Assembly (NCBI GenBank): GCA_020200135.1
Contig: JAIVJI010000064.1
Coordinates: 30,988-94,987 of the forward strand
Source: Acidobacteriota bacterium
GTDB lineage: Bacteria; Acidobacteriota; Blastocatellia; Pyrinomonadales; Pyrinomonadaceae
Direction: 5' to 3'
Length of the DNA stretch: 64,000 bases
In this document: positions 6,649 through 51,647 of the stretch, piece after piece
Position numbering within the stretch: position 1 is the first letter of the stretch
Layout: the number at the start of each line of letters is the position of its first letter
The notes under the pieces: generated by a model
Databases searched by the model: none
Told to the model about the DNA's origin: nothing
Seen by the model: the letters and a program-made list of their open reading frames with translations, nothing else
Position numbers and translations under genes: made by a program

Positions 6649-6755
6649 GGCGATTTTAGATTTTTGATTTTCGATTTAAGAACTTGTCTTCGAGAGCCCG
6701 GGCCGCCGTATGTAACCACAGAAAATCGCAAATCAAAAATCTAAAATCGCCAATC
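6649..6755. repeat. Heptamer-array hairpin, unit gattttN
   Basis: Left arm 6652-6679 holds four 7-nt units (gatttta, gattttt, gattttc, gatttaa). Right arm 6721-6755 holds five inverse units (gaaaatc, gcaaatc, aaaaatc, taaaatc, gccaatc). The outer 22 bp pair perfectly, and the order of variant units is mirrored between arms. Loop about 40 nt. It fills the gap between the DUF4350 stop and the MoxR start. It is strikingly AT-rich inside a GC-rich operon. Confidence 0.9.
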
Positions 6756-6758
6756 TCC

Positions 6759-8159
6759 CTAACGCGCCTGGCGAATCTCGCGCGAGCGCATGAGGATGCC
6801 GAGGTCGCGTTCGAGCTCGCGCAGGCGCCGCGCGAGCGCCACGGCGCGGCGTGCGCCGAGCGGCGCGCCGGCCGCCGAGTCCTCGCACTCGCCGAGGAGT
6901 GCTTCCAGCTCCCGGCGGTCGCGGCCGGAGCGTGCGGCGACGCGCTCGGCGATCTGCGCGGCCGTCGCGGTCGCGGGCAGCCCACTGTAGCGCGCCAGCG
7001 CGCGGCGCGTGCGCTGGTAGATGTTCTCGACCGCGAGGTCGTAAGCGCGCGCTCTCTGTTGCAGCTCGGCCATCGAGGAGACGAACTCAAGCTTGGAGCG
7101 GCGGTCCGCGCGCGGCGCGGGCAGCGCGCGCGCGAAGCGGCGGCCCCGGGTCCAGACCACGGCCAGCGCGACGAGCGCGCCCTGCGCGAACATCCAGAGG
7201 ACGGGCGTGCCGCTGAAGTATGCGAAGAGGAGGTTGCGCGCCTCGCCGAAGCCGTGGTGCAACTCGTCGAAGGCGACGCGCCCGCGCCGGCCGCCCGTCA
7301 CCACGCCCACTGCGAGGAAGAGGTTGTCGGCGCGGTTGACGCCCGCGTTCGAGACTATGTAAGGGTCGGAGAGGACGACGATGCGCCCGCGCCCGTAGGC
7401 GTAATCGACGAGCAGCGCGCCCCGCCCTTCGCGCCCGTCGCGGAGGTGGACGACCGGCGCGCTCGTGTCAGGGCCCGTGTCGTCAACCTCGGGCGGCTCG
7501 GGCGGCGGGGCGTCTTCGGTCGCCCCGCCCCAGAAGTCCTCTTCCGCCGAGGGCGTCGGCCTCTCCGCGCCGACGCCGACGCCGACTCGGGCGGACGGCT
7601 GGTAGACGTAGAGGCGCGAGGCGAAGCGCGAGCGCGTCACCTCCGTGACGTGGCGCGTGAGCGCGGTCGGCTGCGCGGGCGAGACGAGGGGCACGCCGCG
7701 CGTCATGTTCTCGGCGTCGTGCGGGAGCACTTCGGGGCCGGGCAGCTCGACCGCCTCGGTGTAGATGCGCCAGCGACCCGAGGGCGGGAGCAGCGTCGGC
7801 GCGGGCGCGCGGTCGATGAGCACGAGGCGGCCGCCGTACCCGACCCAGCGGAGAACCGCGTCGGCCTCGTTCTTCTCGACTTCGCGCCGCAGCGGCCCGA
7901 CCATGACGAGGGTCTGCGGGCCCTCGGGGCCGTCGAGCGCGCTCATCGGCAGCCCCCAGCGCGAGACTTCGTGGCCGCTCTGCTTGAGGTACTCGAAGAG
8001 CGCGCGCGTCCCCGTCCCGCCCGAGTTTTGTGTCGAGCGGTCGGGCGCGAACTCGGTCTCGAACTCCTCCTCCACGCGCACGTACGACGCCGCGTTGAGC
8101 GCCGCGAACACCGCGACCAACACGACGAACGAGACGAAGATGAGCAGGCGGCTCTTCAT
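6759..8159 (-). CDS. DUF4350 domain membrane protein
   Basis: A 466-residue protein with an N-terminal membrane helix (5-24), an extracytoplasmic region starting RSTQNSGGTGTRALFEYLKQ (about 41-60) that is characteristic of DUF4350, an acidic Pro-rich loop (about 195-230, PPPEPPEVDDTGPD), and a second helix near 315-335 before a basic cytoplasmic tail. The N-terminal half resembles the GATase-like domains of proteins that accompany DUF4129 and MoxR genes. Its function is not known. It follows the DUF4129 gene and is followed by MoxR, each gap being filled by a heptamer hairpin. Confidence 0.82.
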   Translation of the reverse strand: MKSRLLIFVSFVVLVAVFAALNAASYVRVEEEFETEFAPDRSTQNSGGTGTRALFEYLKQSGHEVSRWGLPMSALDGPEGPQTLVMVGPLRREVEKNEADAVLRWVGYGGRLVLIDRAPAPTLLPPSGRWRIYTEAVELPGPEVLPHDAENMTRGVPLVSPAQPTALTRHVTEVTRSRFASRLYVYQPSARVGVGVGAERPTPSAEEDFWGGATEDAPPPEPPEVDDTGPDTSAPVVHLRDGREGRGALLVDYAYGRGRIVVLSDPYIVSNAGVNRADNLFLAVGVVTGGRRGRVAFDELHHGFGEARNLLFAYFSGTPVLWMFAQGALVALAVVWTRGRRFARALPAPRADRRSKLEFVSSMAELQQRARAYDLAVENIYQRTRRALARYSGLPATATAAQIAERVAARSGRDRRELEALLGECEDSAAGAPLGARRAVALARRLRELERDLGILMRSREIRQAR

Positions 8160-8165
8160 ATTTTT

Positions 8166-8259
8166 AAGTCTGAAGTCTGGAGTCTGGAGTCAACACAGCG
8201 GCACTCTCAAATTCGTTTTCATTTCCTGCTCAAGACTCCAGACTTCAGACTCCAGACTT
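8166..8259. repeat. Heptamer-array hairpin, unit RagtctG
   Basis: Left arm 8166-8193 has four units (aagtctg, aagtctg, gagtctg, gagtcaa); right arm 8232-8259 has four inverse units (aagactc, cagactt, cagactc, cagactt). Loop 38 nt. The right arm overlaps the last codons of the DUF4129 gene, whose final residues KSGV and stop codon are encoded by repeat units. Unit variants are not strictly mirrored here. Confidence 0.9.
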
Positions 8260-9459
8260 GTTTAGCGCCCGGCGGCAGCGCGTCTTGAAGCTCTCCCAGT
8301 CGGAGGCCGTGGCGTCGCGCAGTCCGTACCAGTGAACCTCGAAGTCGAAGGTGAGCGGGAGCATCTCGGCGTAGAGGCCGGGGCTTGCGGCGCGGCGGAC
8401 GGCGCTCAGGTAATCGCGGTTGGTCTTGTGCTGCGCGAGGCGCACGACGCCGCGGTCGCCCAGCTCGCAGAGCAGCGCGACGTAAGCCTTGCGTATCGCG
8501 CCGCGCAGGTCGCCCGCGAGCGCCAGCCGCTCGGCGTCGTCGAGCAGGTCGGCGACCGTCTGGTCGGCTTCGAGCCGTTCGCCCAGAACGACGCGCGCCC
8601 CGCGCCTTGGCTTGCGCGACCGGCGCCCGCGCCCGCGCCGCAGCCAGAGCAGGCGCGCCACGTACGCCAGCACCGCGAGGCAGAGCAGGAGGACGACCAC
8701 CTGCGTCGTCGTCGAGACGCGCGGGCTCGCGCCACGGCTGATGGGCCCGCCCTTCGGCAAAAGGCTCAGCACCCACTCGACGAAACGTTTGACCAGATTC
8801 TGGAGCGCGTTGCCCTGCTGCCGGCGCACCTCGCGGTCGAACACGGGCGAGCGCAGGATGGCGTTGAGCCGGCCGCGCTCGGCGTCCCTGTCGAGCGGCT
8901 CGGCAGCGCCGCCCTCGGCCTCGGCGAGCCGCGCTTCGAGCGAGCGCAGGCGCCCGGCCGCCGCGCGGAGCCCGGCCGCGTACTTCTCATACTCGTCCGC
9001 GTCCTCGGCGGCCTCGTCGAGCGCCTCGTGGAGCCAGGCGTTGTCAACGTCGATGAAGTCCGCGCCCCGGCCGACCCTCTCGCGCGGCGGCAGCGAGTCG
9101 CGGACTGCGCCGAGCACTTCGGGCGCCGTCTCCTCCAGCTCGGCCTCGACCTCCTCCAGCTCGGCCCCGGCGTCCGTGTCGGACTCTTCATCCGACTCGC
9201 CGGCCGCGGCCGCGCGCTCGTAGAGGGCCGCCAGCTCTTCGAGCGGCTCGACCGCGCCGCGCACGCGCGCGCGGTAGTCCGCGAGCGTCGAAGGGCTCCG
9301 GGCCGGCCGCGCGTCGGCGGCGGGACGAGACTGTGCGTGCTGAGCCGTCGGGAAGAAACAGGCGAGCCCCACGAAGAGGGGGAGTAAGACGGCGTGCGCG
9401 AGCCGCGAGCCGCTGGGCGCGCGTCCCGGCCGAACATTTTTACGGAGCGCGAATCTCAT
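8245..9459 (-). CDS. DUF4129 domain protein
   Basis: 404 residues: a signal-like N-terminal hydrophobic stretch (about 22-42), an acidic, partly coiled extracytoplasmic region (60-220), a membrane helix near 250-272 (VVVLLLCLAVLAYVARLLWL), a basic linker, and a C-terminal DUF4129 domain (about 300-400) with AIRKAYVALLCELGDRG and the TNRDYL and FDFEVHWYG blocks. DUF4129 proteins are found with MoxR/DUF58 and with transglutaminase-like genes; function unknown. The start ATG overlaps the preceding stop (ATGA), indicating coupling. The C-terminus runs into a heptamer hairpin. Confidence 0.85.
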   Translation of the reverse strand: MRFALRKNVRPGRAPSGSRLAHAVLLPLFVGLACFFPTAQHAQSRPAADARPARSPSTLADYRARVRGAVEPLEELAALYERAAAAGESDEESDTDAGAELEEVEAELEETAPEVLGAVRDSLPPRERVGRGADFIDVDNAWLHEALDEAAEDADEYEKYAAGLRAAAGRLRSLEARLAEAEGGAAEPLDRDAERGRLNAILRSPVFDREVRRQQGNALQNLVKRFVEWVLSLLPKGGPISRGASPRVSTTTQVVVLLLCLAVLAYVARLLWLRRGRGRRSRKPRRGARVVLGERLEADQTVADLLDDAERLALAGDLRGAIRKAYVALLCELGDRGVVRLAQHKTNRDYLSAVRRAASPGLYAEMLPLTFDFEVHWYGLRDATASDWESFKTRCRRALNKSGV

Positions 9460-10523
9460 CCGACTTCAGAGCCCGAGGACGGAGCCGGGCGGCTTCTCCG
9501 ACGCACCGTGCGGCCCTTCCTCCGGGGCGTGCGGCCCGGCGGCTGGCTCCGCGCGAATCGGCGCGGGCGCGTCCGTCCGCGTTCGGTGCGGCGGGGGGGC
9601 TCGTCGACGTAGAGCAGCGAGAGCCCCATTATCCAGACCGGCGCGAGCAGGATGGTCGAGACCTGCCCCAGCGCCGCCGAGCTGACCGTGTACCACGCCG
9701 GCAGGCGCGTCGCGTCCAGCTCCAGCGGGTTGACGCCGTTCAGGTGCGCGAACCAGCCCAGCGGCAGCAGCAGCAGTATCCCCGCCGAGCACCACGCGAA
9801 CCCCGTGAACAGGAACATCCCCATCAGCCGGCGGACGTTCCCGCGCGCCAGCCCGGCGCTGCGGCTGATGGAGTCGAAGACGCCGCGCCCCTCGACCATC
9901 AGCACCTGCGGCACGTAGGCCACGCGCCCCGCCACGAAGAAGAAGACGAAGAGTATCAGCAGCACCGAGGCCGCCGTCACCAGCAGGAAGAGGATGAGCG
10001 CGAGCCACTGCACGACCGCGGCCTGGGTCGTCGCCGCCAGGAGGCCCACCGCGAAGGCCGCCATCGTCCAGACCATCAGCCCCGAGCCGAGCGCCGCCAC
10101 CGTCGAGATGAACAGCCAGAAGAGGACGACCACCGACGCGCGGAACAGCGCCCACGCGCGCGAGCGCACGCTGCGGTAGATGAGCCGCGTCGTCACGGGC
10201 TCGCCCCAGAGCAGGTGCATCACGAGGTTGCGCGAAGCCCCGCCCATCACGGTCAACTGCGACAGCAGCCCGAAGACGTAGACGCCAAACCCGGCGGCCG
10301 CCCCCAGGAAGTAGACGACCACCCGCGCCTCGCTCGCGGCCGCCGACATCGCGCGCAGGCAGACGAGCAGCAGCACCCACCCCGCCGCCGAGACGACGAC
10401 GGGCGGCACGCTGGCGCGTATGAGTGCGCCGAAGTGCCGGCGGTAGAGCCGCACCGTGCGGTCGATGAGGTCGCCCGCGCCGAGCGGCGCCAGTTGCAGG
10501 TTTTTGACGGCGAGCGTCGCCAA
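9456..10523 (-). CDS. Multi-pass membrane protein, GPDPase-membrane-domain-like
   Basis: 355 residues, with a conserved opening LQLAPLGAGDLIDRTVRLYRRHF-like amphipathic segment, then about six to seven hydrophobic helices between residues 37 and 300, and a very basic C-terminal tail (last 45 residues, rich in R and P). The pattern resembles the membrane domain found in front of glycerophosphodiester phosphodiesterases, but no phosphodiesterase domain is present. It is the first gene of the operon and probably a scaffold or channel for the DUF4129/DUF4350 proteins. Its stop overlaps the next start by 4 bp. Assignment to a named family is tentative. Confidence 0.7.
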   Translation of the reverse strand: MATLAVKNLQLAPLGAGDLIDRTVRLYRRHFGALIRASVPPVVVSAAGWVLLLVCLRAMSAAASEARVVVYFLGAAAGFGVYVFGLLSQLTVMGGASRNLVMHLLWGEPVTTRLIYRSVRSRAWALFRASVVVLFWLFISTVAALGSGLMVWTMAAFAVGLLAATTQAAVVQWLALILFLLVTAASVLLILFVFFFVAGRVAYVPQVLMVEGRGVFDSISRSAGLARGNVRRLMGMFLFTGFAWCSAGILLLLPLGWFAHLNGVNPLELDATRLPAWYTVSSAALGQVSTILLAPVWIMGLSLLYVDEPPRRTERGRTRPRRFARSQPPGRTPRRKGRTVRRRSRPAPSSGSEVG

Positions 10524-10883
10524 GATTCTTCGCTTCCGCGACCCGAAACATTTAAGCCGTGGTGATTTGCGCGGCGGATTGTAGCACAGCGCCGCGGCGG
10601 CACACTTAGGCGCATCTGTGGCGAAACTTATTCAAAAATTTGAAGTCGCCTTCAAAAATTCGGTTTTTAGTTTCGGCGGCATCGCGGCCGGTGCCCGCGC
10701 GGCCACCTCCGGCAAACGCTTAAGTCCTGTATTTTTTGACTTAGTGTACAAAACCGAGAATACGGGACAAGGTGGCCTTCGAGTTGCTTTAATCCGGCAC
10801 AGGTAATCCTGTACAGCAATGTGCCTTCTGATCAAACACCAGAAACATCTAGAAGGTTAAACACAACGAAAGGAATAGTTAGC
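10524..10883. other. Divergent regulatory region of operon and TonB receptor
   Basis: A 360-bp gene-free stretch, more AT-rich than its surroundings. It contains two direct copies of ttcaaaaatt at 10631-10640 and 10651-10660, 20 bp apart, the first forming the palindrome ttcaaaaatttgaa, which is a possible operator. A weak promoter for the receptor may be TTGACT (about 10736-10741), 16-17 bp before GAATAC/AATACG. The purine-rich cgaaaggaatag at 10867-10878 is the receptor's ribosome binding site. A small open frame at 10618-10806 has no protein-like character. Confidence 0.4.
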
Positions 10884-13800
10884 ATGAGAAATCCGATACG
10901 GTTCGTGACCGTGATGCTGACGCTGGCGATCTCGCTCTTCGGGGCGATGAGCGCGGCGGCGCAGAACTCCACGACGGGATCGATTGAGGGGACTGTCGTC
11001 GACGTCAACGGCGCGGCGGTTCCGGGCGTGACCGTCACGGCCACCAGCCCGAACCTTATCCGCCCGCAGACGGCGGTCACCAACGAGGATGGCATCTACC
11101 GCCTCGGCAACCTCCCGCCGGGGCGCTACTCGGTGACGATTGAGTCCGACAAGGGCTTCGCCAGGTTCGAGCAGACGAACGTCGAGGTCAACCTGTCGAG
11201 GACCTCGACCGTCGCCGTCACGCTCCGCCCGGCGGGCGCGACCGAGACCGTCGAAGTGACGGCCAGCTCCGGCGCCGCCATCGACGTCACCCAGAACACG
11301 ACGGGGACGAACGTCTCCACCGAGCAGTTCTCGAACTTCCCGACGCAGCGCACCGTCCAGTCGCTCTACACCATCGCGCCGACGGTCTCGCGCTCGGGCC
11401 TGCGCGACTCCTCGGGCCGCGACCGCGACCCGTCGGTCGCCGGCTCGTCCGGCCCCGAGAACAACTACATCCTCGACGGCATCACCGTCAGCGACCCGGC
11501 CTTCGGCGGCTCGGGCGCCAACCTGCCGTTCGAGTTCGTCCAGGAGGTCGAGATCAAGACCGGCGCCTTCAGCGCCGAGTACGGCAAGTCGACCGGCGGC
11601 ATCTTCAACGTCATCACCAAGTCGGGCGGCAACGAGTTCCGCGGCGACCTCTTCGGCTACGTGACGACCAAGAGCATGGTGCGTGAGGTCGAGCAGTTCT
11701 CCTTCACGGGCTCGGCCCCGAGCGGCTTCTCCGAGCTCGACGCCGGCTTCGACCTCGGCGGCCCGATCGTCAAGAACAAGCTCTGGTTCTTCGGCGCGTT
11801 CAACCCGCAGCAGCGCAAGAACTTCTTCCTGACCCAGACCTTCCGCGACGAGGTCGAGAACAAGGTCACGACGCCCTTCTACTCGGGCAAGGTGACGTGG
11901 GGCATCAACCAGAACCACACGATGACCTTCTCGACCTTCGGCGACTTCTCGAAGGAGCAGGGCTTCCTCTACGGCAGCGCCAACCTCGGGGTCTCCGGCT
12001 TCGGCAACGACCCGGCGAGCTTCCGCGGCGAAATCCAGCGCGGCGGCCACAACTACACGACCCGCCTGAACTCGGTCTTCTCGCCGAACTTCATCGGCGA
12101 GTTCGCCTTCGGCCTGCACCTCCAGAGGCTGAACGCCCTCCCCGAGGACCCGGTCGACCCGCTCATCACCGACAACTTCGCGGTGCTGAACGGCGCCGGC
12201 ACGGCCGTGGCGGCGGTGACAAACACCAACGTCCAGGACATCCGCTGCGACGACGTTGACAACAACCCCGTGACGCCCTGCGTCAACCGCAGCTACGGCT
12301 TCGTCAGCTTCGTCAACTCGCCGGGCGGCTCGCTCCAGCGCAGCTTCGTCCAGCAAGGTTTCGGCCTCTTCACCACGCAGAACCGCGACCGCCTGGAGTT
12401 CCTCGGCCGCTTGCAGAACATCTTCGGCAAGCACACGCTCAAGTACGGTTTCGAGTTCAACCGGAACATGTACGAGATCGACACCCGCTCGACCGGCCCC
12501 GAGCGCACCTTCGCCAACTCGCAGGGTCTGCCCTTCGCGGGCGGCTTCACCGACACCAACCAGGTCAGCGGCTACCGCGTGACCAACAGCTTCGGCGTCT
12601 GCACGACCCGCGGCACGACCATCGTCTGCCCGAGCGCGGCGGCCACGAACCGCGCGGCGCTCATCGCCGCCAGCGCCGGCTACACCGGCGCGATCACGGG
12701 CGCGATCACGCTGGCCGAGGCTCAGAACAACCCGTTCCTCGTCCTGAACTCGACCCGCATCCGCGACTTCAAGAACATCGCCGACACCTACACGGATGTC
12801 GAGAGCTTCTACGTCCAGGACGAGTTCAAGGCGACGCGCAACCTCCAGTTGACGTTCGGCCTGCGCTGGGACTACCAGCAGGCGTACGGCCAGAACGACG
12901 TCTCCTACCTGAAGCTCAACGACTTCATCGCCAACCTCCAGCCGCGCCTCGGCATTAGCTGGGATTTCACCGGGACGGGGCGCGGCAAGGTCTTCGCCAA
13001 CTTCGCGCGCTTCGTCGAGGCGCCGATCCCGCTCGACGTCAACGTCCGCGCGGGCTCCGAGGACAGCCAGACCGACAAGAACTTCAACGTCAGCAACTAC
13101 GGCGGGCTCGCCGCCGGCTCGTTCATCGTCCCCGGCCGCACCATCGCCAACCTCGGCGCGCACCCGACCCCGATCGACCCGGGCCTCAGCCCGCAGACGG
13201 TCGAGGACTACACGGCCGGCATCGAGTACGAGCCCATCAAGGACCTCGCGCTCGGCTTCCGCGGCGTCTACCGCCGCCAGGACAACGTCATCGAGGACGG
13301 GTCGTTCAACCAGGGCGTTGACTACTTCCTGTTCAACCCCGGCCGCCGCGTCTCACAGGACGTGACGACCGAGGACCTGGCCTGCGTCCAGTTCAACGCC
13401 TGCTTCGGCCCGGCGCGCCGCTACTACCGCGCGCTCGAGTTCACGGCGCAGAAGCGTTTCACGAACAACTACCAGTTCATCGCTTCCTACGTCTACTCCA
13501 GCCTGATCGGCAACTACGAGGGCCTGTTCCGCAACGACAACGGTCAGAGCGACCCGAACATCACCTCGCTGTTCGACCTGGTCAGCCTGCTCAACGGGCT
13601 CTACGGCCGCCTGCCGAACGACCGCCCGCACCAGTTCAAGTTTGACGGCAGCTACCGCACGCCGTTCAAGCTGATGCTCAGCGGCTCGTTCCGCGCGCAG
13701 TCGGGCATCCCCTTCAACGCGCTGATCCCCGACGTCGACTACGGCGACAACGAGGGCTTCGGCGCGCCGCGCGGCACGGCCATCGTCCCCGCGACCGCGC

Positions 13801-14099
13801 CGGCGCCGGCCGGCTTCCCGAACGTCGTGGACAGCATCGGCAGCAACCGCACGCCGACGACCTGGAACCTCGACCTCGGCGCCTACTACCCGATCAACTT
13901 CGGCGAGGAGCGCCAGCTCCGGTTCCAGCTCGACTGGTTCAACGTCTTCAACAACCAGCGCGCCATCCGCCTCGACGAGACCTTCTCGATCACCAGCGGC
14001 GTCAACGGCGTGCCCGACGTCCCGAACCCGTTCTTCGGCTCGGGCAGGATCTTCCAGTTCCCGTCGGCTCTCCGGCTGGGCGCGAAGTTCTCGTTCTAG
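10884..14099 (+). CDS. TonB-dependent receptor, Oar-like, with carboxypeptidase-regulatory-like domain
   Basis: 1071 residues. Signal peptide 1-27 ending in AAAQ, then a carboxypeptidase-regulatory-like beta-sandwich (about 28-110: STTGSIEGTVVDVNGAAVPG, DGIYRLGNLPPGRYSV), a plug domain with YILDGITVSD and FSAEYGKSTGGIFNVITKSGGNEF, and a long outer-membrane beta barrel ending in LRLGAKFSF with the usual terminal Phe. Oar-type receptors are abundant in Acidobacteriota and import or bind large substrates or surface ligands; the substrate is unknown. The ATG at 10884 has an AAAGGA site 9 nt upstream and gives a clean signal peptide. A rho-independent terminator follows. Confidence 0.92.
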   Translation: MRNPIRFVTVMLTLAISLFGAMSAAAQNSTTGSIEGTVVDVNGAAVPGVTVTATSPNLIRPQTAVTNEDGIYRLGNLPPGRYSVTIESDKGFARFEQTNVEVNLSRTSTVAVTLRPAGATETVEVTASSGAAIDVTQNTTGTNVSTEQFSNFPTQRTVQSLYTIAPTVSRSGLRDSSGRDRDPSVAGSSGPENNYILDGITVSDPAFGGSGANLPFEFVQEVEIKTGAFSAEYGKSTGGIFNVITKSGGNEFRGDLFGYVTTKSMVREVEQFSFTGSAPSGFSELDAGFDLGGPIVKNKLWFFGAFNPQQRKNFFLTQTFRDEVENKVTTPFYSGKVTWGINQNHTMTFSTFGDFSKEQGFLYGSANLGVSGFGNDPASFRGEIQRGGHNYTTRLNSVFSPNFIGEFAFGLHLQRLNALPEDPVDPLITDNFAVLNGAGTAVAAVTNTNVQDIRCDDVDNNPVTPCVNRSYGFVSFVNSPGGSLQRSFVQQGFGLFTTQNRDRLEFLGRLQNIFGKHTLKYGFEFNRNMYEIDTRSTGPERTFANSQGLPFAGGFTDTNQVSGYRVTNSFGVCTTRGTTIVCPSAAATNRAALIAASAGYTGAITGAITLAEAQNNPFLVLNSTRIRDFKNIADTYTDVESFYVQDEFKATRNLQLTFGLRWDYQQAYGQNDVSYLKLNDFIANLQPRLGISWDFTGTGRGKVFANFARFVEAPIPLDVNVRAGSEDSQTDKNFNVSNYGGLAAGSFIVPGRTIANLGAHPTPIDPGLSPQTVEDYTAGIEYEPIKDLALGFRGVYRRQDNVIEDGSFNQGVDYFLFNPGRRVSQDVTTEDLACVQFNACFGPARRYYRALEFTAQKRFTNNYQFIASYVYSSLIGNYEGLFRNDNGQSDPNITSLFDLVSLLNGLYGRLPNDRPHQFKFDGSYRTPFKLMLSGSFRAQSGIPFNALIPDVDYGDNEGFGAPRGTAIVPATAPAPAGFPNVVDSIGSNRTPTTWNLDLGAYYPINFGEERQLRFQLDWFNVFNNQRAIRLDETFSITSGVNGVPDVPNPFFGSGRIFQFPSALRLGAKFSF

Positions 14100-27222: not shown

Positions 27223-27337
27223 GAATCGTAAACCGCGAGCCGTAAATCGTAAAGAGCCGTGAACCGTAAACCGCGAACCGTGACAAGAGAAAGACTATTC
27301 TTACTCGTCACGGTTCACGGTTTACGGTTCACGGCTC

Positions 27338-27339
<2 letters not shown>
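27223..27339. repeat. Heptamer-array hairpin, unit RaaccgT (largest)
   Basis: Left arm 27223-27281 contains eight 7-nt units (gaatcgt, aaaccgc, gagccgt, aaatcgt, then after 3 nt gagccgt, gaaccgt, aaaccgc, gaaccgt). Right arm 27310-27337 has four inverse units (acggttc, acggttt, acggttc, acggctc). Positions 27252-27283 pair with 27308-27339 with one mismatch in 32, and the order of variants is mirrored. The end of the element touches the htrA stop codon (27338-27340), and the other end is 8 bp from the aldehyde dehydrogenase start. Confidence 0.92.
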
Positions 27340-32097: not shown

Positions 32098-32223
32098 AGT
32101 AGTCAGTAGTCAGTAGTCAGTAGCCAGTAGGGCTACCGCCCGGCGAACGTTGACGCCTGAAACCTGGCGGCTCGGCCCACGAAGGTTTTTCTACTGACTA
32201 CTGTCTACTGTCTCCTGACTACT
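32098..32223. repeat. Heptamer-array hairpin, unit agtagtc, between divergent genes
   Basis: Left arm 32098-32132 has five units (agtagtc three times, agtagcc, agtaggg); right arm 32196-32223 has four inverse units (gactact, gtctact, gtctcct, gactact). Loop about 60 nt. The same unit occurs at 41779-41881. Unlike the other elements it sits between two start codons, so it lies in promoter territory for purF and the glutaredoxin-like gene. A possible purF -10 box (TACAAT, 32233-32238) is just beyond it. Confidence 0.9.
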
Positions 32224-38892: not shown

Positions 38893-39037
38893 TGCGCTCC
38901 GTAGGAGCGGCATGTTTATAGTCTCCGCAGTCTATGCGACACGAGCCCCGTCAGGGGCGACATACACATGTCGCCCCTACGGAGCTTAGAAGGTAAATAA
39001 ACGTCTTAGACTATAAACATTCTGTCCCTACGGGACT
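38893..39037. repeat. Palindromic interspersed repeat after tyrS
   Basis: The left part (from about 38893, ctccgtaggagcggcatgtt) and the right part (up to 39037) are imperfect inverse copies, sharing agactataaacat with its complement. Nested inside is a perfect 10-bp hairpin (38954-38963 with 38968-38977). Motifs of the type ctccgtaggagcg...catgtttatag are known as dispersed palindromic repeats in several environmental bacteria. It could also end the tyrS transcript. Confidence 0.75.
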
Positions 39038-41770: not shown

Positions 41771-41778
41771 GTAGAAGC

Positions 41779-41881
41779 AGTAGTCAGCAGTCAGTAGAAG
41801 AACTTTCTTATGACGAATCGTCCGTGTGTCAGCGTCAACATCCGCCGAGCGGAGCCTACTGTCTACTGACTACTGTCTACT
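41779..41881. repeat. Heptamer-array hairpin, unit agtagtc (second locus)
   Basis: Left arm 41779-41799 has three units (agtagtc, agcagtc, agtagaa), right arm 41854-41881 four inverse units (gcctact, gtctact, gactact, gtctact). It begins 8 bp after the PilZ stop and ends 7 bp before the RDD start. The unit is shared with the 32098-32223 element 9 kb away; order of variants is not strictly mirrored. Confidence 0.88.
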
Positions 41882-41888
41882 TTAAAAG

Positions 41889-44362: not shown

Positions 44363-45544
44363 ATGAGTAAAGACATCTTCATCCTCGGCGGCAAGCGCAC
44401 GCCGATGACAGAGTACGTCGGCGCGCTCAAGGACGTGAAGGCCATCGACCTGGGCGCGGCGGCGGCGCGCGGCGCGCTCGAGGCGTCGGGGGTGGCGGCC
44501 GAAGACATCGACCACACCATCGTCGGCAACGCCCTCCAGACCTCGGGCGACGCCATCTACGGCGCGCGCCACGTCGCGCTCAAGGCGGGGGTGCCCGCAG
44601 ACCGCCCGGCGCTCACCGTCAACCGCCTCTGCGGCAGCGGCATCCAGGCCGTCGTCTCGGGCGCGCACATGATCCTGCTGGACGAGGCGCGCACGGCGCT
44701 CGTCGGCGGGATGGAGTCGATGTCGATGGCGCCGCACGTCATCTACGGCGCGCGCTCGGGCTTCGGGCTGGGGCAGGGCAAGCTCGAAGACTCGCTGATG
44801 GTCGCGCTCTTAGACACCTACTGCAACACGACGATGGCGGGCACGGCCGAGAACCTCGCGCGCCGCTACGAGATCACGCGCGAGGAGCAGGACGCCTACG
44901 CGCTGCGCTCGCAACAGGAGGCCAAGCGCGCGCAGGACGCGGGCGTCTTCGCCGAGGAGATCGTCCCCTACGAGGTGAAGACGCGCAAGGGCGTGAAGGT
45001 CGTGGACAAAGACGACCACCTGCGCCCCGACACGACGCTCGAAGTGCTGGCGAAACTCCCGACCGCGTTCAGCAAGGACGGCTTCGTCACCGCCGGCAAC
45101 GCCTCGGGGATAGTTGACGGCGCGGCCGCGCTCGTCATCGCGGGCGAGGAGTTCGTCCGCCGGCACGGCCCCGCGCCGCTGGGGCGCATCGTCTCTTGGG
45201 CCTACGCGGGCGTCGAGCCCGACGTGATGGGCATCGGCCCCGTCCCGGCCATCCGCAAGGCGCTGGAGAAGGCGAGCCTCAAGCTCGAAGACATCGACCT
45301 CGTCGAGGTCAACGAGGCTTTCGCCTGCCAGTACCTCGCCGTCGAGAAGGAGCTGGGGCTCGACCGCTCGAAGACGAACGTCAACGGCGGCGCCATCGCG
45401 CTGGGCCACCCGCTCGGCGCCTCGGGCGCGCGCCTCGTCCTGACGGCGCTCGGAGAGCTGAGGCGGCGCGGCGGCCGCTACGGCCTCGCCTCCGCCTGCA
45501 TCGGCGGCGGACAGGGCATCGCCATCATCTTCGAGCGCGTCTGA
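44363..45544 (+). CDS. Thiolase (acetyl-CoA acyltransferase)
   Basis: 393 residues. Nucleophile C90 in [17 protein letters not shown], the second-loop [19 protein letters not shown] (with catalytic His near 349) and the terminal ACIGGGQG with the second catalytic Cys. All active-site residues are present. It condenses two acetyl-CoA or cleaves 3-ketoacyl-CoA. The sequence is nearest to degradative/biosynthetic acetyl-CoA C-acetyltransferases; no beta-oxidation genes are adjacent. It ends at a strong terminator. Confidence 0.93.
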
Positions 45545-45580
45545 AGATTTGTTGGAGCGCCCGGCAAAAAGGGCGTGACG

Positions 45581-45629
45581 CGCGGGGCGCCCCGGCGGGG
45601 TTTGCATGACTCTGCCGGGGCGCCCCGCG
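45581..45629 (+). terminator. Terminator of thiolase gene
   Basis: Perfect 16-bp stem (45581-45596 with 45614-45629), 17-nt loop, 37 bp after the stop; followed by ccgtttctgg, a modest T-run. Confidence 0.8.
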
Positions 45630-45739
45630 CCGTTTCTGGATTCCCGCCATCAATGCTTATTTAACTGCACTTCAACACCGTCCTGAAAGCAACCGCGCCC
45701 AGGGGGCCTGGCATCTTAAGCGGGCTCATCTACAGCGGT

Positions 45740-45768
45740 TTGACCTAACAGTAAAAATCGAGTAAAAG
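45740..45768 (+). promoter_or_regulatory. Candidate promoter of LTD nuclease gene
   Basis: TTGACC (45740-45745), 17-bp spacer, TAAAAG (45763-45768), in an AT-richer 200-bp gap. The distance to the start is about 90 bp. Confidence 0.5.
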
Positions 45769-45856
45769 CATCGCCTCGACTTTACACACACGCGCCTTCC
45801 CGGCTGCCCCGGACTGCGCCAACCTTTAAACCCCCTTTTCCACGAAAGGAATGTTC

Positions 45857-48800
45857 ATGCACCCACCCGCCAGTGGGCCGAAGCATGCACCCGTGCGCTT
45901 CCGCCTGACCGCCCTCTTGCTCGTCTTTTCACTCCTGGCCCTGGCCATCCCGACACAATTTATTCCGTTCATACCCACGGCCGAAGCCGCGGCCGGAGAC
46001 CTCTTCTTCTCGGAATATATCGAAGGCAGTTCTAACAATAAGGCGCTCGAAATCTATAACCCTTCCGGCGCGGCGGTGAACCTGGGGACGGCCGGTTATA
46101 CCGTCGAGATGTATTTCAACGGCGCAACCACCGCCGGATTCACAGCCACTCTGGCCGGCAACGTCCCCGCAAACGGCACTTTTGTCCTCGCCCCCACGAA
46201 CGCCAACGCTACTATCTTAGCCGCCGCCAATCAGCAGGCCGGCGCAAGTTGGTTTAACGGCGACGACGCGGTTCTTCTGAAGAAGAGCGGCGTCATCGTC
46301 GATTCAATCGGCCAAGTAGGGGTTGACCCCGGCACGGAGTGGGGCACGGGCGTCCAGTCCACCGCCGACAACACCATCCGCCGCAAGTCCACCGTCTGCG
46401 TTGGCGACGCCATCCATAACGACGCCTTCAGCCCCGCCGTCGAGTGGGACGGCTTGGCCACCGACACCTTCGGCGGCCTCGGCTCGCACAGCGCCTCGTG
46501 CGGCGGTGACCCGACACCGGAGCCGACGGCGACGCCGACCGCGACTCCCACTCCCACTCCCACTCCCACGCCGACGCCGACGCCGACGCCGACCCCCGTG
46601 CCGACGCCGTCGCCCGTCACGCCCGGCTCGGTCGTCATCAGCCAGGTCTACGGCGGCGGCGGCAACTCCGGCGCGACCTACAGGAATGACTTCGTCGAGA
46701 TTTTCAACCGCAGCCAGACGGCCATCAACCTCGCCGGCTGGTCGGTGCAGTACGCAGGGGCGACGGGCACCTCCTGGAACGTGTCCCCGCTGACGAGCGT
46801 CATCCTCCAGCCGGGCCAGTACTACCTGGTTCAGCAGTCGCAGGGCGCCGGCGGCACGGTCAACCTGCCGACCCCCGACGCGTCTGACACCACCCTCATG
46901 AGTTCCGGCAACGCCAAGGTCGCGCTCGTGCGTTCGACCACGGCCATTACGGGCGGCAACCCCCTCGGCAACCCGAACCTGATGGACTTCGTCGGGTACG
47001 GCACCGCGGACGCCTTCGAGGGCACGGCCGCGGCGCCGGGGCTGACGAACACGACGGCGGCGCTGCGCGCGCGCGGCGGGTGCCGCGACACCGACCAGAA
47101 CGGCGCCAACTTCGTCGCCGGGGCGCCTACCCCGCGCAACACCTCGACGCCCCTCAACGTCTGCCCGACCGGCGACCTCCCGCCCGAGGTCTCCACGACC
47201 AACCCGGCCAACGGCGGGACGAGCTTCCCGCTGGCCGCCAACGTCACCGTCACCTTTGACGACTCGGTGACGGTGCAGAACGGCGGCTTCACGCTCTCCT
47301 GCACCGAGAGCGGCCCGCACACGCTGGCCGTGACGGGCGGCCCGACGACTTTCACTCTCAACCCCGACACCGACTTCGCATCCGGCGAGCAGTGCACCGG
47401 GACCGTGCTGGCGAGCCACGTCAGCACCCAGAGCGCGACGCCCGTCCCGATGGCCGCCAACTACTTTTGGACGTTCGAGACGCTGGTCGTCCGCGACCCG
47501 GCCGCGCACGTGGTGATGGGCAACCCGTCGGGCGCGGTCGCCGACGCGGGCACGCCGCTCAACTACCTGATGATGAAGCCGCAGTACGCCCTCTCCTACA
47601 ACAACGACCGCGGGATTCCGAACTGGACGAGCTGGCACCTCGACGCCACCTGGACGACGAGCGTCGCCGACCGCCAGAACGACTTCCGCTCCGACCTGAC
47701 GCTCCCGGCCGGCTTCAAGCGCGTGACGAGCGGCTACAACTTCGCCACCTACGGCTTCGACCGCGGCCACATGGTCCCGTCGGCCGACCGCACCTCGTCC
47801 GTCGAGGACAACTCGGCCACCTTCCTGATGACCAACATGGTCCCGCAGGCTTCGGGCAACAACCAGGGGCCGTGGAACGACCTTGAGGGCCACATCCGCA
47901 CGATGCTCAACGGCTCGGCCAACGAGATTTACATCGTCTCGGGCGGCCACGGCGTCGGCGGCCAGAGCAGCACGGGGAACTGGAACACCATCCAGGACAC
48001 CGGCGGCAACACCGTCACCGTGCCCGACCTGACGTGGAAAGTCGTGATGGTGATGCCGCGCGCCAACGGCGACGACGTGGCGCGGGTAGACGCCGCGACG
48101 CGCACCTTCGCCGTCATCATGCCGAACGACGACAACATCCGTAACGTGGACTGGAAGAAGTACCTCGCCACGGTCGATCAGGTCGAGGCGCTCACCGGCT
48201 ACGACTTCTTCTCGAACGTCCCCGAGGCCATCCAGAACGTCATCGAGGCGAAACTCGACGCGGAGTACGACACCGCGCCCGCGGCCAACGGCCAGACGGT
48301 CGCGACGGCCGAGGACACCGCGCAGGCGATAACGCTGACCGCGTCCGACTTCAACGTCAACAACGAGCTGACCTACGCGGTCGTGGGCCAGCCCGCGCAC
48401 GGCCAGCTCTCGGGCACGGGCGACAGTCTGACCTACACGCCCTTCGCCGACTACAACGGCCCCGACAGCTTCACCTTCAAGGCGAACGACGGCGGCAAGG
48501 ACTCGGCGGCGGCGACCGTCAACATCAACGTCACGCCGGTCAACGACGCGCCCGCGCTCGCGGGCGTGCCGGAGTCGGCGAGCGTCGTCGAGCTGACCGC
48601 CTTCACCTTCACGGCGACGGCGGGCGACGTCGACGGCGGGCAGACGCTCACCTTCTCGCTCGCGGGCGCGCCGGCCGGCGCGAGCATCAACCCGACGACG
48701 GGCGAATTCAACTGGACGCCGACCGAGGCGCAGGGCGGCACGGGCGTGCCCTTCGTCTTCACGGTCAGCGTCTCGGACGGCGTCGAGAGCACCGGCTCGC

Positions 48801-49444
48801 CGGTGGCGTTGACGGTGGGCGAGGTCAACCAGGCGCCCGCGCTCGCCGCCATCGGGCCGAAGGTCGTCGTCTACGGCGGCACGCTCGCGTTCACGGCCTC
48901 GGGCTCAGACGCCGATCTGCCGGCGCAGGGTCTGAGCTACAGCCTGACGGGCGCCGTCCCGCAGGGCGCGTCCATCAACCCCGCGACCGGCCAGTTCGCG
49001 TGGACGCCGACGGCGGCGCAGGCCGGGCACGTCTACGAGTTCGGCGTCCGCGTCACCGACGGCGGCGGACTCTTCGCCGAGGAGACCATCGGCGTCGGCG
49101 TGCAGCACTCGTGGTCGGGCTACCTCCAGCCGATCAACGCGGGCGGCGGCTCGGTCTTCAAGCTCGGGCAGACCGTCCCCGTCAAGTTCCGGCTGACGGG
49201 CGCGAGCGCCCCCGTCACCGACGCCGTCGCGCGGCTCTACGTGACGAAGATCAGCGACGGCGTCGCCGGCACGGAGGAGGAGGCCGGCTCCACCTCGGAC
49301 GCGACCGAGGGGAACCTGTTCCGCTACGCGGACGGCCAGTACATCTTCAACCTCGGCACGAAGGGGCTGACGGCGGGGACGTACCGGCTGAGGGTTGACC
49401 TGGGCGACGGCGCGCAGCACACCGTCAACGTCTCGCTCAGGTAG
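45857..49444 (+). CDS. Secreted multidomain DNA/RNA non-specific endonuclease with two lamin-tail domains
   Basis: 1195 residues. Signal peptide (ends TAEAAAG, about 45), LTD1 (about 46-215), a Pro-Thr linker of repeated TP (219-255), LTD2 (256-425: VVISQVYGGGGNSGATYRNDFVEIFNRS), an Ig-like domain (440-545), a NUC-type ββα-metal nuclease (551-801) with the catalytic FDRGHMVPSADR and metal Asn in NNQGPWNDLEG, then two or three cadherin-like repeats (810-1090) and a PxKF-type C-terminal domain (1092-1195). All nuclease motifs are present. It should be secreted or surface-held and degrade nucleic acid. ATG 45857 fits the AAAGGA site better than ATG 45851. It opens a 12-kb block of LTD proteins. 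Confidence 0.88.
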   Translation: MHPPASGPKHAPVRFRLTALLLVFSLLALAIPTQFIPFIPTAEAAAGDLFFSEYIEGSSNNKALEIYNPSGAAVNLGTAGYTVEMYFNGATTAGFTATLAGNVPANGTFVLAPTNANATILAAANQQAGASWFNGDDAVLLKKSGVIVDSIGQVGVDPGTEWGTGVQSTADNTIRRKSTVCVGDAIHNDAFSPAVEWDGLATDTFGGLGSHSASCGGDPTPEPTATPTATPTPTPTPTPTPTPTPTPVPTPSPVTPGSVVISQVYGGGGNSGATYRNDFVEIFNRSQTAINLAGWSVQYAGATGTSWNVSPLTSVILQPGQYYLVQQSQGAGGTVNLPTPDASDTTLMSSGNAKVALVRSTTAITGGNPLGNPNLMDFVGYGTADAFEGTAAAPGLTNTTAALRARGGCRDTDQNGANFVAGAPTPRNTSTPLNVCPTGDLPPEVSTTNPANGGTSFPLAANVTVTFDDSVTVQNGGFTLSCTESGPHTLAVTGGPTTFTLNPDTDFASGEQCTGTVLASHVSTQSATPVPMAANYFWTFETLVVRDPAAHVVMGNPSGAVADAGTPLNYLMMKPQYALSYNNDRGIPNWTSWHLDATWTTSVADRQNDFRSDLTLPAGFKRVTSGYNFATYGFDRGHMVPSADRTSSVEDNSATFLMTNMVPQASGNNQGPWNDLEGHIRTMLNGSANEIYIVSGGHGVGGQSSTGNWNTIQDTGGNTVTVPDLTWKVVMVMPRANGDDVARVDAATRTFAVIMPNDDNIRNVDWKKYLATVDQVEALTGYDFFSNVPEAIQNVIEAKLDAEYDTAPAANGQTVATAEDTAQAITLTASDFNVNNELTYAVVGQPAHGQLSGTGDSLTYTPFADYNGPDSFTFKANDGGKDSAAATVNINVTPVNDAPALAGVPESASVVELTAFTFTATAGDVDGGQTLTFSLAGAPAGASINPTTGEFNWTPTEAQGGTGVPFVFTVSVSDGVESTGSPVALTVGEVNQAPALAAIGPKVVVYGGTLAFTASGSDADLPAQGLSYSLTGAVPQGASINPATGQFAWTPTAAQAGHVYEFGVRVTDGGGLFAEETIGVGVQHSWSGYLQPINAGGGSVFKLGQTVPVKFRLTGASAPVTDAVARLYVTKISDGVAGTEEEAGSTSDATEGNLFRYADGQYIFNLGTKGLTAGTYRLRVDLGDGAQHTVNVSLR
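46511..46615 (+). repeat. Hexamer tandem repeat encoding a Thr-Pro linker
   Basis: About 17 copies of a 6-nt unit (actccc, then acgccg) encode alternating TP between the two LTDs. The unit is a multiple of three, so copy changes would lengthen or shorten the linker without frameshift. Confidence 0.9.
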
Positions 49445-49450
49445 CACGCG

Positions 49451-49532
49451 CGCGCGCCCGCCGGCGGCGGCGACCGACCGACCGGGCGGCCCTCGCGGCC
49501 GCCCGCCGGCCGGTCGCCACCCCCGGCGGGCG
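49451..49532. terminator. Three-tier GC-rich hairpin after LTD nuclease gene
   Basis: Nested perfect arms: 12 bp (49451-49462 with 49521-49532), 8 bp (49467-49474 with 49509-49516) and 8 bp (49482-49489 with 49495-49502). It begins 6 bp after the stop. No long T-tract follows, so it may be an mRNA 3' end protector or a factor-dependent terminator. Confidence 0.7.
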
Positions 49533-49669
49533 CGTGTAAGATTTGCGGGCTTAATTTTCGCAGGGCGCTCAAACTTCTCCCCGCGCCCGTCCTTCAACCC
49601 AAACCGCATCTCGCCCGGCCGAGGACGCCGGCTCGCCCTTTCACTTCCTACCGCAGGAGGAACCTCGCC

Positions 49670-51556
49670 ATGCCCCGAACGCTTCTCGAAGCAACCGCCA
49701 ACGCCCCCGCGCGCCGCCGGCTGCTGACGCGCGCGCTCTTCGCCGCCCTCTGCCTCGCGGGACTCGCCGGCTCGGCGCGCGACGTGTCGGCGCAGCCCGC
49801 GATGGGCTCGCGCGACCTCGTCATCAGCCAGGTCTACACGCGCGGCGGCGAGTCGGGCGCGACCTACCAGAACGACTTCGTCGAAATCTTCAACCGCGGC
49901 AACGTGACCGTGAACCTCTCGGACTACACGCTCCAGGTGCTGGTGGTCGCGCCGAGGATGACGGGCGGCGTCCTCACCCCCGTCGGCATCCGCGTCGTCT
50001 CGTCGGGCGGCTCCGTGGGCCTCGACCCCGGCAAGTATTACCTCTTCCAGTTCGCGGGCGCCGGCAACAGCGGCGCGCCGCTCCCGACGCCCGACAGCGG
50101 CGGCGGCTTCTTCCCCACGAACCTCGCGCTGCCGAGCGCGAGCGGGCGCGTCGCGCTCGTCAAAGGCATACCCACGCACCTCTACGCGCAGTTCGGCTGC
50201 TCGGTCGGCGTTGACGCGGCGCTCGCGGACTTCTTCTCCTACGGCCCCACGAACTGCGTCGAGGGGAGCGCGAACTTCCGCGCGCCTTCGCAGACGACAG
50301 CCGCCGTACGCAACACCGACGGCTGCGCCGACACCGACGACAACGTCGCCGACTTCACGACGGCCGCGCCCACGCCGCGCAACAGCTCGACGGCGCAGCG
50401 GCTCTGCACCTTCGCCTCGCCGACCAGCACCGTGCAGTTCGAGTCCTCGACCGCCTCGGTCGGCGAGGGCGCCGGCTTCGCCGAGATTTTCGTCACGCGC
50501 GCCGGCTCGACCGGCCCGACCTCCGTCCAGTACGCCACCGTCGACGACACCGCCAGCGAGCGCACCGACTACACGACGGCCCTCGGCACGCTCAGCTTCG
50601 CGGCGGGCGAGACGCGCAAGAGCTTCCGCGTGCTCATCACCGACGACGCGCGCACGGAGGGCGGCGAGACGCTGACTCTCGCGCTCAACCACCCGACCGG
50701 CGGCGTCGTGCTCGACACGCGCCACATCATGCGCCTGTCCATCAACGACAACGACGCGACCGCAGGGCCGAACCCCATCGACACGGCCGAGTTCTTCGTC
50801 CGCCAGCACTACGCCGACTTCCTCTCGCGCGTGCCCGACGAGACGGGGCGGACGTTCTGGACGAACGACATCGACATCTGCGGCGCGGACGCCCGGTGCC
50901 TGGAGGTCAAGCGCATCAACGTCAGCGCGGCCTTCTTCCTGTCGATAGAGTTTCAGGACACGGGCTACTTCGCCTACCGCGCCTACAAGGCGTCGTTCCC
51001 CGGCAACTCCTCGCGGCTGCGCGGCTTCCCGCTCTACCGCGAGCTGTGGCGCGACGCGCAGCAGATAGGGCGCGGCGTGGTCGTCGGGCAGGGCGACTGG
51101 ACGGGGCAGTTCAACGCGAACAAGCAGGCGTACACGGCCGAGTTCGTGACCCGGCCCGAGTTCCTGCTCCGCTACCCGGCTTCGCAGTCGCCCGGGGAGT
51201 TCGTCGAAGTGCTCAACGCGACGGCCGGCGGCTACCTCTCGCAGGCCGAGCGCAATCAGGCGGCCGCCGAACTGACGGCGGCCGGCAACACCCCGGCCGG
51301 CCGCGCCGCCGTGCTCACGCGCGTCATCGAGAACCCGACCTTTAAGACGGGCGGCGAATTCAACCGCGCGTTCGTGCTGATGGAGTACTTCGGCTACCTG
51401 AGGAGGAACCCGAACGACCCGCCCGAAGGCTTGAGCTTCTCGGGCTACGACTTCTGGCTGGGCAAGCTGAACAGCTTCAACGGCGACTACATTCAGGCCG
51501 AGATGGTGAAAGCCTTCATCTCGTCGGCCGAGTACCGCCAGCGGTTCGGGCAGTAA
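49670..51556 (+). CDS. Secreted LTD/Calx-beta/DUF4214 protein
   Basis: 628 residues. Signal peptide (1-41, ending VSAQ), lamin-tail domain (45-230, opening DLVISQVYTRGGESGATYQNDFVEIFNRG), Calx-beta domain (about 250-360, SVGEGAGFAEIFVTRAGS), and a DUF4214 region (about 375-628) with FFVRQHYADFLSRVPDETGR, IEFQDTGYFAYR, FVLMEYFGYLRRNPNDPP and MVKAFISSAEYRQRFG. DUF4214 is common in secreted and surface proteins; its role is not settled. Cysteines in the LTD are paired. No catalytic motif. GGAGG-like site upstream. It is a paralogue of the next gene and shares its LTD with LTD2 of the nuclease gene. Confidence 0.88.
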   Translation: MPRTLLEATANAPARRRLLTRALFAALCLAGLAGSARDVSAQPAMGSRDLVISQVYTRGGESGATYQNDFVEIFNRGNVTVNLSDYTLQVLVVAPRMTGGVLTPVGIRVVSSGGSVGLDPGKYYLFQFAGAGNSGAPLPTPDSGGGFFPTNLALPSASGRVALVKGIPTHLYAQFGCSVGVDAALADFFSYGPTNCVEGSANFRAPSQTTAAVRNTDGCADTDDNVADFTTAAPTPRNSSTAQRLCTFASPTSTVQFESSTASVGEGAGFAEIFVTRAGSTGPTSVQYATVDDTASERTDYTTALGTLSFAAGETRKSFRVLITDDARTEGGETLTLALNHPTGGVVLDTRHIMRLSINDNDATAGPNPIDTAEFFVRQHYADFLSRVPDETGRTFWTNDIDICGADARCLEVKRINVSAAFFLSIEFQDTGYFAYRAYKASFPGNSSRLRGFPLYRELWRDAQQIGRGVVVGQGDWTGQFNANKQAYTAEFVTRPEFLLRYPASQSPGEFVEVLNATAGGYLSQAERNQAAAELTAAGNTPAGRAAVLTRVIENPTFKTGGEFNRAFVLMEYFGYLRRNPNDPPEGLSFSGYDFWLGKLNSFNGDYIQAEMVKAFISSAEYRQRFGQ

Positions 51557-51561
51557 CGCAG

Positions 51562-51647
51562 GGGTCGGGGAGTCGTGAGTCGGGAGTCAGAATGAAGAAG
51601 GCATCCGCCTTTTAATTCTGACTCCCGACTCCCGACTCCCCGACGCC
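51562..51647. repeat. Heptamer-array hairpin, unit gagtcgg
   Basis: Left arm 51562-51590 (gggtcgg, then gagtcgt, gagtcgg, gagtcag), right arm 51619-51647 (tgactcc, cgactcc, cgactcc, cgacgcc). 28 of 30 positions pair and variants are mirrored. It begins 6 bp after the stop of the upstream gene and lies between two co-directional LTD paralogues. Confidence 0.9.

Follow-up and report, generated by a model that had tools for sequence, protein, structure and literature searches.

Dispersed intergenic palindromes of bacteria include the repetitive extragenic palindromes (REPs), which go with RAYT transposases, and the miniature inverted-repeat transposable elements (MITEs), gene-less inverted-repeat copies that occur alongside a form which shares their ends and carries a gene. 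A stem-loop of another kind is the intervening sequence (IVS) of 23S rRNA. That of Coxiella burnetii, in the accessible part of the report, has terminal inverted repeats, a 28-bp stem and the S23p open reading frame (ORF) in its loop, two to three tandem heptamers, strain-variable in number, precede the ORF, and the stem-loop is excised by RNase III (PMC4990558). Heptamer arrays are described, again in the parts accessible, as GGGNATC arrays in Xanthomonas and Nostoc, with convergent GGGAATC array pairs in Xanthomonas (70 and 75 cases; PMC4692102), and as TAACTGA arrays in Beggiatoaceae, Cyanobacteria and Bacteroidetes, located immediately upstream of start codons and within ribosomal protein operons (PMC4679880). 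Here we describe seven hairpins whose arms are opposed tandem arrays of 7-nt units, in a stretch of 64,000 nucleotides (the window) from an Acidobacteriota bacterium (assembly GCA_020200135.1, contig JAIVJI010000064.1; the source genome, G000, is a 5.27-Mb assembly of 137 contigs, 93% complete). The hairpins are probably short gene-less members or derivatives of S23-bearing palindromic elements that occur in several phyla and are kin to the 23S rRNA IVSs.

As in the IVS, a long inverted-repeat stem is present (arms of 20-33 bp in the window; arms at 86 of 99 S23 loci), and full-length relatives have the S23 ORF in the loop (both of the two found in G000). Unlike the IVS, the seven hairpins have loops of 16-60 nt with no S23p ORF, the elements stand between protein genes and not in rRNA (at gathering scores Rfam had no match in the window, which thus holds no rRNA), and they carry repeat arms at either end, fall into many unit families and include many copies without the gene. 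With the GGGNATC and TAACTGA arrays they share head-to-tail 7-nt units in mostly intergenic positions, whereas those reports concern one unit each and, in the parts accessible, tell of no unit exchange at a fixed site. The terms "S23" and "four helix" are absent from the texts of PMC4692102 and PMC4679880, and "intervening sequence" from the latter. REPs are likewise intergenic dispersed palindromes, some near stop codons (446 of 4,072 in E. coli lie within 15 nt of a stop, by the accessible part of the RepRanger survey; PMC12306157), but the present stems are longer and have tandem-repeat arms; the RepRanger text contains neither "tandem" nor "heptamer", and G000 has two Y1_Tnp (PF01797) matches. 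As with MITEs, gene-less copies exist beside a gene-bearing form that shares their ends, but the enclosed gene encodes a four-helix bundle and not a transposase; junctions free of hairpins were seen (e.g. yebC-ruvC in the relative G024), and no target-site duplication was readable. The heptamer excess, single-unit families, convergent Xanthomonas pairs, TAACTGA arrays and IVSs were already known. The preliminary description of this DNA knew of no described palindromic family of this kind, for which the Xanthomonas GGGAATC pairs, as accessible in PMC4692102, are nearer prior art. No link of S23/IVP genes to tandem-heptamer palindromes was found in the literature, covered partly as excerpts and comprising open papers and a minority of preprints.

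S23 genes within opposed heptamer arrays

An inverted-repeat search blind to period, run over the whole 64 kb, yielded 13 hairpins in the window. When the arm period was taken as the best self-match lag, seven had a best lag of 7, and these lie in exactly the seven gaps in which opposed 7-nt arrays had been described. Their arms measure 20-33 nt and are 88-97% complementary, with about 3-5 units per called arm and loops of 16-60 nt, so that the dimensions given before (3-8 units, loops of 20-65 nt) need adjustment. The folding of each hairpin beats all 200 of its own shuffles (z -4.3 to -14.5). A strict array detector passed only three of the seven pairs, and found none in 20 shuffled windows.

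From arrays that lacked a close partner, two pairs of opposed arrays were traced in G000; the arrays of each pair stand about 450 bp apart and surround an ORF of about 120 aa. Both ORFs encode four helix bundle proteins of PF05635/TIGR02436, the S23 or 23S rRNA intervening-sequence protein (IVP; E 8e-39 and 5e-34), and they are the only PF05635 matches in the 93%-complete genome. S23 loci were then chosen by the protein model alone, 70 in relatives (30 best-per-genome and a further 40 drawn from that list by descending score, after omission of three that had internal stops) and 30 from genomes behind named records; the added loci lean toward strong protein matches. An ORF was obtained at 99 of these 100 loci, and opposed arms within 300 bp of it at 86, in Acidobacteriota and other phyla: 27/30 best-per-genome, 36/40 further relatives and 23/29 named-record loci, the genomes of the last having been picked for carrying CAGT palindromes with a search pattern that itself imposes the CAGT polarity. 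A narrower earlier count over the first 30 loci gave 25 with arms, 22 of them at lag 7. The arm period at the 86 loci was 7 in 73, 8 in five, 9 in five and another value in three. Among 238 control genes with lengths of 250-700 bp, opposed arms were found at nine, which include the two G000 S23 genes themselves; they were found at 2 of 309 random segments.

A PF05635 gene was present in 39 of 40 genomes behind named palindrome-bearing records and in none of 14 control genomes. Judged by title, the matches listed (80 of at least 113 stretches) come from Cyanobacteria, Bacteroidota, Planctomycetota, Chloroflexota, Verrucomicrobiota, Poribacteria and others. S23 genes were also found in 37 plasmid records, and all ten that were opened have opposed arms (period 7 in eight, 8 in two). 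In four of these (L450, L452, L455, L449), with 7- or 8-nt arms, the S23 gene and its arms are flanked by cas6 and cas4 (two cyanobacterial plasmids, whose units differ), by cas10 and a gene of the Cmr3 family (a third plasmid) and by two ribonucleotide reductase genes (a fourth); in the others they lie elsewhere. Phage records gave no match to the S23 protein. The closest gene pair, both from one genome, has dN 0.014 and dS 0.202, and the remaining pairs have dN 0.12-0.28 with dS high or saturated; by these values the S23 genes look constrained at the protein level. A solved homologue is 2gsc (XCC0516; E 3.9e-32), a homopentamer of four-helix bundles according to the accessible part of PMC4990558.

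Gene-bearing and gene-less forms meet at single sites. Among 22 yebC loci read, ruvC adjoins in 12. At this junction G000 has RAACCGT arms with the S23 gene, and its congener G001 has a 92-bp RAACCGT hairpin at the same spot; the first unit includes the yebC stop codon in both. Repeat-armed hairpins of other units occupy it in G022, G007, G020, G014, G010 and G018, and none was found in G005, G009, G019 and G024. The ten loci at which only yebC matched, inspected by eye, have repeat arrays in G016, G012, G017, G041 and G008, none in G002, G003, G004 and G011, and another palindrome in G021. After queF, G000 has CAGTAGT arms with the S23 gene, and the congener G003, as well as G020, has short CAGTAGG-type hairpins; a periodic hairpin, in some cases of another unit, stands there in 9 of 27 relatives read. 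Since RAACCGT and CAGTAG-type hairpins occur at the same sites without the gene, the short forms are best read as gene-less S23 elements.

The unit follows the protein. Across the 73 seven-nt S23 elements, unit similarity tracks protein identity (Mantel test, 0/500). Counting a rotation distance of 0-1 as agreement and using pairs from different genera, which share sequences and are not independent, the units agree in 29/46 pairs at 65% protein identity or more and 18/40 at 60-65%, in 11/59 at 55-60% and 13/97 at 50-55% (24/156 for 50-60%), and in 11/794 at 40-50% and 24/1516 below 40% (35/2310 together). Of the pairs that agree at an identity of at least 50% (71), 5 have detectable flank homology and 66 do not. 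Since non-coding arms so far diverged would be scrambled if they were neither linked to the protein nor maintained in their own right, recognition of the repeat by the S23 protein is proposed, though this is not proof. The 9-nt label (five members) clusters on a poorly resolved protein tree, with 2 changes against a shuffled mean of 4.9 (0/500).

Unit replacement at conserved gene junctions

Homologous junctions were compared in genomes that are mostly draft assemblies, one per species, and the genome pairs are not independent. At the 27223 junction of the window, 9 of 11 relatives read have a lag-7 hairpin, with units RAACCGT, RAATGGT, GGTTTCA, AAGGTTC and GTCAGTC-like, and G013 and G016 have opposed arrays below the finder's criteria. 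The 31183 junction shows four units in four members of the genus, those of G001, G002 and G003 differing from that of the window, and the 51564 junction has a GGATGAA unit in G003 and a GCAGTAG unit in G002. In 79 co-occupied junction pairs the units differ by at least 3 in 50, and the loop likeness of these 50 is near chance (5/50 at p<0.05), which rules against a gradual drift of the unit in place. Unit agreement is 22.8% in orthologous pairs and 8.9% in other pairs. As differing units come with differing loops and the families recur within the genome, hairpins have mostly been replaced, with some inheritance of units, while the junctions stayed occupied. At G003 and G004-related junctions, CACAGAGA-type 8-nt palindromes of G003 stand where other relatives have heptamer hairpins.

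Occupancy of conserved junctions is shared beyond chance (p<0.05) in 6 of 36 genome pairs, all among the better-sampled pairs; most other pairs have few junctions. The p values are 7.8e-4 for G000/G003, 0.0026 for G002/G003 and 7.1e-4 for G003/G022, and become 4.7e-4, 0.031 and 0.0054 when unoccupied gaps below 60 bp are dropped. G000 and G004 show no sharing (one junction occupied in both, five and six in one alone, p 0.94). The co-occupancy in these six pairs, and its survival in the three named ones, would suit immobile, functional 3' stems that certain gene ends require (for mRNA protection, for ribosome or polymerase control, or in a REP-like role), which replication slippage and template switching remake with a polymerase preference for 7 nt, the S23 genes being passengers. 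Such stems would also explain the hairpin edges at stop codons and the variants shared between the arms of one element. Template switching is known both to create and to repair hairpins (PMC8794818, part accessible), and reduced translation is reported for REPs that lie no more than 15 nt from a stop (PMC12306157, likewise). We consider this account unlikely, because the units recur as dispersed families with shared inner ends, loops are replaced along with units, S23 genes lie within arms far above controls and the unit follows the protein. The stem mismatches show no G-U bias either, and a wobble test did not support selection on an RNA stem.

Period, placement and polarity of the hairpins

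The main survey covered 1.12 Mb from nine genomes (453 kb of G000 and eight relatives). Lag 7 accounts for 112 of its intergenic periodic hairpins and lag 8 for 15, while lags 4, 6, 9, 10 and 11 have a single one each; 118 of 120 lag-7 hairpins are intergenic. An array-first count on the same DNA gave 96 arrays at lag 7, seven at lag 8 and at most three at any other lag, with an inverse partner within 250 bp for 74 of the 96 and 22 unpaired; three shuffles of the intergenic pieces gave a mean count of 0 at every lag except 0.33 at lag 12. Thus the predicted excess of 7-nt over 6- and 8-nt units (112 against 1 and 15) is borne out, shuffled intergenic DNA yields no lag-7 arrays, and the heptamer palindromes are a real class, variable in unit sequence, that is not a product of chance. 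The statement that the unit is always 7 nt holds for the seven hairpins and not for the class, which also has 8- and 9-nt members. In other G000 stretches (338 kb), lag 7 accounts for 24 of 30 hairpins with a self-match of at least 0.6. Hairpin density ranges from 0.72 to 2.75 per 10 kb across the surveyed genomes, and the 34 hairpins in 453 kb of G000 extrapolate to about 395 per genome. In 20-kb samples of 20 further genomes, lag-7 hairpins (self-match at least 0.6) occurred only in G025 (two) and G038 (one), and looser criteria gave 9-nt hairpins in G011, G025, G041, G057 and G098. Palindromes of ACGGAACAA-like 9-nt units are found at L131 and L136 (G041, G057), in a different taxonomic family of the same bacterial class.

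Greedy grouping of 118 arms gave 23 unit families, and the units were previously held to be free in sequence. This view does not stand, as the units form recurrent families: two of them, with 11 hairpins each, supply 22 of the 34 sampled in G000, and these two carry the units of the two S23 elements of that genome (RAACCGT, CAGTAGT). The RAACCGT pattern has 256 matches in G000, overlapping registers counted, and the reversed pattern none. Dispersed copies of a family within one genome share inner ends and variant order. In RAACCGT elements picked regardless of complementarity, both arms have the same two-unit pattern in 11 of 15 (expected 6.0; 41 of 10,000 permutations as high). For the hairpins at large, arm identity is 0.951 within an element, a value biased upward by the hairpin-finding method, against 0.889 between copies. 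The preliminary description had offered a general process that amplifies any 7-nt seed and then copies it inversely. The many families, the variants mirrored in the two arms and the unpaired arrays agree with such a process, and the inverse-copy part is in keeping with the shared variants. An arbitrary seed is a different matter: two families dominate in G000, dispersed copies share variant order and the unit tracks the S23 protein, which makes free amplification very improbable. A stretch of about 215 bp in G003 (L145:3062-3278) has many 80-88% copies in that genome and is possibly a composite element around a CAGTAG hairpin.

The hairpins have median arms of 28 nt and a median loop of 23 nt, and are anchored at stop codons. 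With gene positions from our own codon-usage gene caller, the median distance to the hairpin edge is 3 bp from the stop codon (n=127; 10-90%: -12 to 17) and 41 bp from the start codon (n=109); aperiodic intergenic hairpins lie a median of 29 bp from stops (n=46). Both edges are within 20 bp of stops in 17 of 22 hairpins in convergent gaps, and the upstream stop is within 20 bp in 75 of 83 in co-directional gaps; where the next start is more than 100 bp off, 16 of 17 are still within 25 bp of the stop. This position, together with flanks of 5' A 0.35 and 3' T 0.38 in GC-rich genomes and terminator-like stems in some loops, is what intrinsic bidirectional terminators would show. Yet in 34 of the 83 co-directional cases no more than 15 bp separates the hairpin from the stop on one side and from the next start on the other, and hairpins are present inside operons, as is the RAACCGT hairpin L050:1619-1694 immediately before the ribosomal protein L14 gene, where termination would cut the operon. 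No T-run rule was seen, and no hairpin at 26-45 kb of the window matched in a terminator scan that allowed loops of 3-8 only and is thus a weak test. There is little reason to expect that the hairpins are terminators.

The arms also have a polarity. The inward-reading arm has more G than C in 100 of 118 cases and more C than G in 12, and is mostly G- and purine-rich. Of 60 whole genomes, 25 carry a CAGT-inward palindrome and two carry one of opposite polarity; a backward-read control of the CAGT-inward pattern matched in six, mostly G004, G044 and G052. The loop-side AAGA motif was counted 72 times against 25.8 in shuffles. A G-rich strand running inward from both sides recalls telomerase-like or reverse-transcribed repeats (cf. 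DRT10) that are appended at the two ends of a break before these are joined. In keeping with this, DRT10 makes tandem-repeat DNA, with 9-nt repeats in one system (PMC12632851, a preprint, part accessible), and the S23 protein matches the retroelement protein Avd weakly, at a score below the cut-off. However, PF00078 (reverse transcriptase) has no match in G000, G001, G004, G017 or G022, all of which carry hairpins, and a mirrored variant order is unexpected from independent additions, so that this origin seems scarcely credible.

Stop codons number 2.83 in inward and 0.71 in outward arms, and the 2.43 of trimmed inward arms exceeds the 1.61 of a per-arm unit-permutation null; the bias runs opposite in the GTTTCAR, GTTCAAR, AGTTTTC and AGCTGTC families. 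A stop cassette in all frames as the cause of the 7-nt period was weak across the 23 unit families (27 of 1000 permutations as high). A second stop exactly 7 nt past the gene's own stop occurs on 33 of 116 sides, with 2-15 at other offsets from 3 to 13; hence the arrays often supply a stop, by which the period itself is not explained.

Six of the seven window hairpins lie in co-directional gaps and one in a divergent gap (Table 1). A PADLOC scan of seven window proteins gave no match. Other repeats in the window are a perfect 24-bp hairpin, AGAATTAACAGGGATGGACAGGAT, at 3809-3908, which is not 7-periodic and resembles one at L045:9990-10084; a hairpin GCTCCGTAGGAGCGGCATGTTTAT at 38896-38985, with a similar GGATGTTTATAG in the loop of the element that G003 has at the 32098 junction and GAGATGTTTATAG in L434; and a 6-nt repeat, CCGACG, in about 17 degenerate copies at 46511-46614, within the ORF 45893-49444.

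Table 1. Heptamer hairpins of the window and the two S23 genes of the source genome
Feature	Position	Arms	Loop (nt)	Properties	Setting
Hairpin GATTTTN	6646-6754	6646-6677/6723-6754	45	32 bp, 97% complementary, lag-7 self-match 0.80	gap 6648-6758, minus-strand genes on either side
Hairpin RAGTCTG	8166-8259	8167-8189/8229-8251		arrays 8166-8191 and 8229-8259	start of gene 6759-8159 to stop of gene 8245-9459 (both minus); overlaps the latter's stop
Hairpin RAACCGT	27223-27339	27252-27284/27307-27339	22	degenerate units extend leftward	aldehyde dehydrogenase gene and trypsin/PDZ protease gene
Hairpin GTGATAA	31184-31259	31184-31213/31230-31259	16		
Hairpin CAGTAGT (first)	32098-32223	32098-32130/32191-32223	60		divergent gene gap
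Hairpin CAGTAGT (second)	41778-41875	41778-41797/41856-41875	58	20 bp, 90%; weakest of the seven	PilZ and RDD genes
Hairpin GAGTCGG	51564-51644	51564-51593/51615-51644	21		
S23 gene 1 (G000)	L040:3939-4304	RAACCGT arms			between yebC and ruvC
S23 gene 2 (G000)	L036:15205-15561	CAGTAGT arms			after queF

Proposed spread and significance

We suggest that an S23 element spreads as one unit and that its protein may recognise the cognate repeat in folded DNA or RNA and aid copying or insertion. Gene-less copies would be mobilised in trans or be relics. Insertion may be tolerated, as hairpins inside operons suggest, because an arm can provide a stop codon and because the long stem could collapse or be cut from the mRNA by RNase III, the last by analogy with the 23S rRNA IVSs. 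Old copies would be lost and permissive junctions refilled from the current stock of the genome, by which the place would be conserved and the unit would change.

Several observations weigh against the S23-element reading. Movement was not observed, and at the divergence of the closest genome pair (median gene identity 88%) no target-site duplication is readable. With no PF00078 match and only two Y1 transposases (PF01797), G000 has no known engine for copying; neither a reverse transcriptase nor a Y1 transposase is supported as the driver. Four of the six unit families of the window have no matching S23 gene found in G000, G004 (88% complete) has 8 hairpins in 54 kb and no PF05635 match, G041 has 9-nt palindromes and no PF05635 match, and 13 of the 99 S23 loci have no arms within 300 bp. 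Lag-7 hairpins occur in just one of six further family members (20-kb samples), so a high density does not extend to the whole family. The 8-nt label, with five members, shows no clustering on the protein tree (5 changes, 500/500 shuffles), linked inheritance of gene and arms could yield part of the unit-protein correlation, and the stem mismatches (35 G-U, 43 A-C) indicate no G-U tolerance on a transcript. The S23p of Coxiella is reported as probably not expressed (PMC4990558, in the part accessible), and the choice of 7 nt is not accounted for by the S23-element reading.

S23 proteins are a common small family, annotated as 'four helix bundle protein' or 'S23 ribosomal protein', whose function is unknown. 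As a tentative proposal, which we hold to be somewhat less likely true than false, S23/IVP proteins specify their own 7-nt (or 8- or 9-nt) repeat in each clade and perhaps propagate it; with the arms they would form a selfish element without a transposase or reverse transcriptase of its own, spread through many phyla and the source of the hundreds of gene-less hairpins in some genomes, of the 23S IVSs and of many heptameric arrays. The unit-protein correlation predicts that each protein binds its own heptamer. Taken together, the S23-element reading would join the bacterial excess of 7-nt repeats, the function of the S23 family and the origin of the 23S IVSs, in a non-coding element that keeps its place and design as its sequence is swapped, and that alignment-based annotation overlooks.

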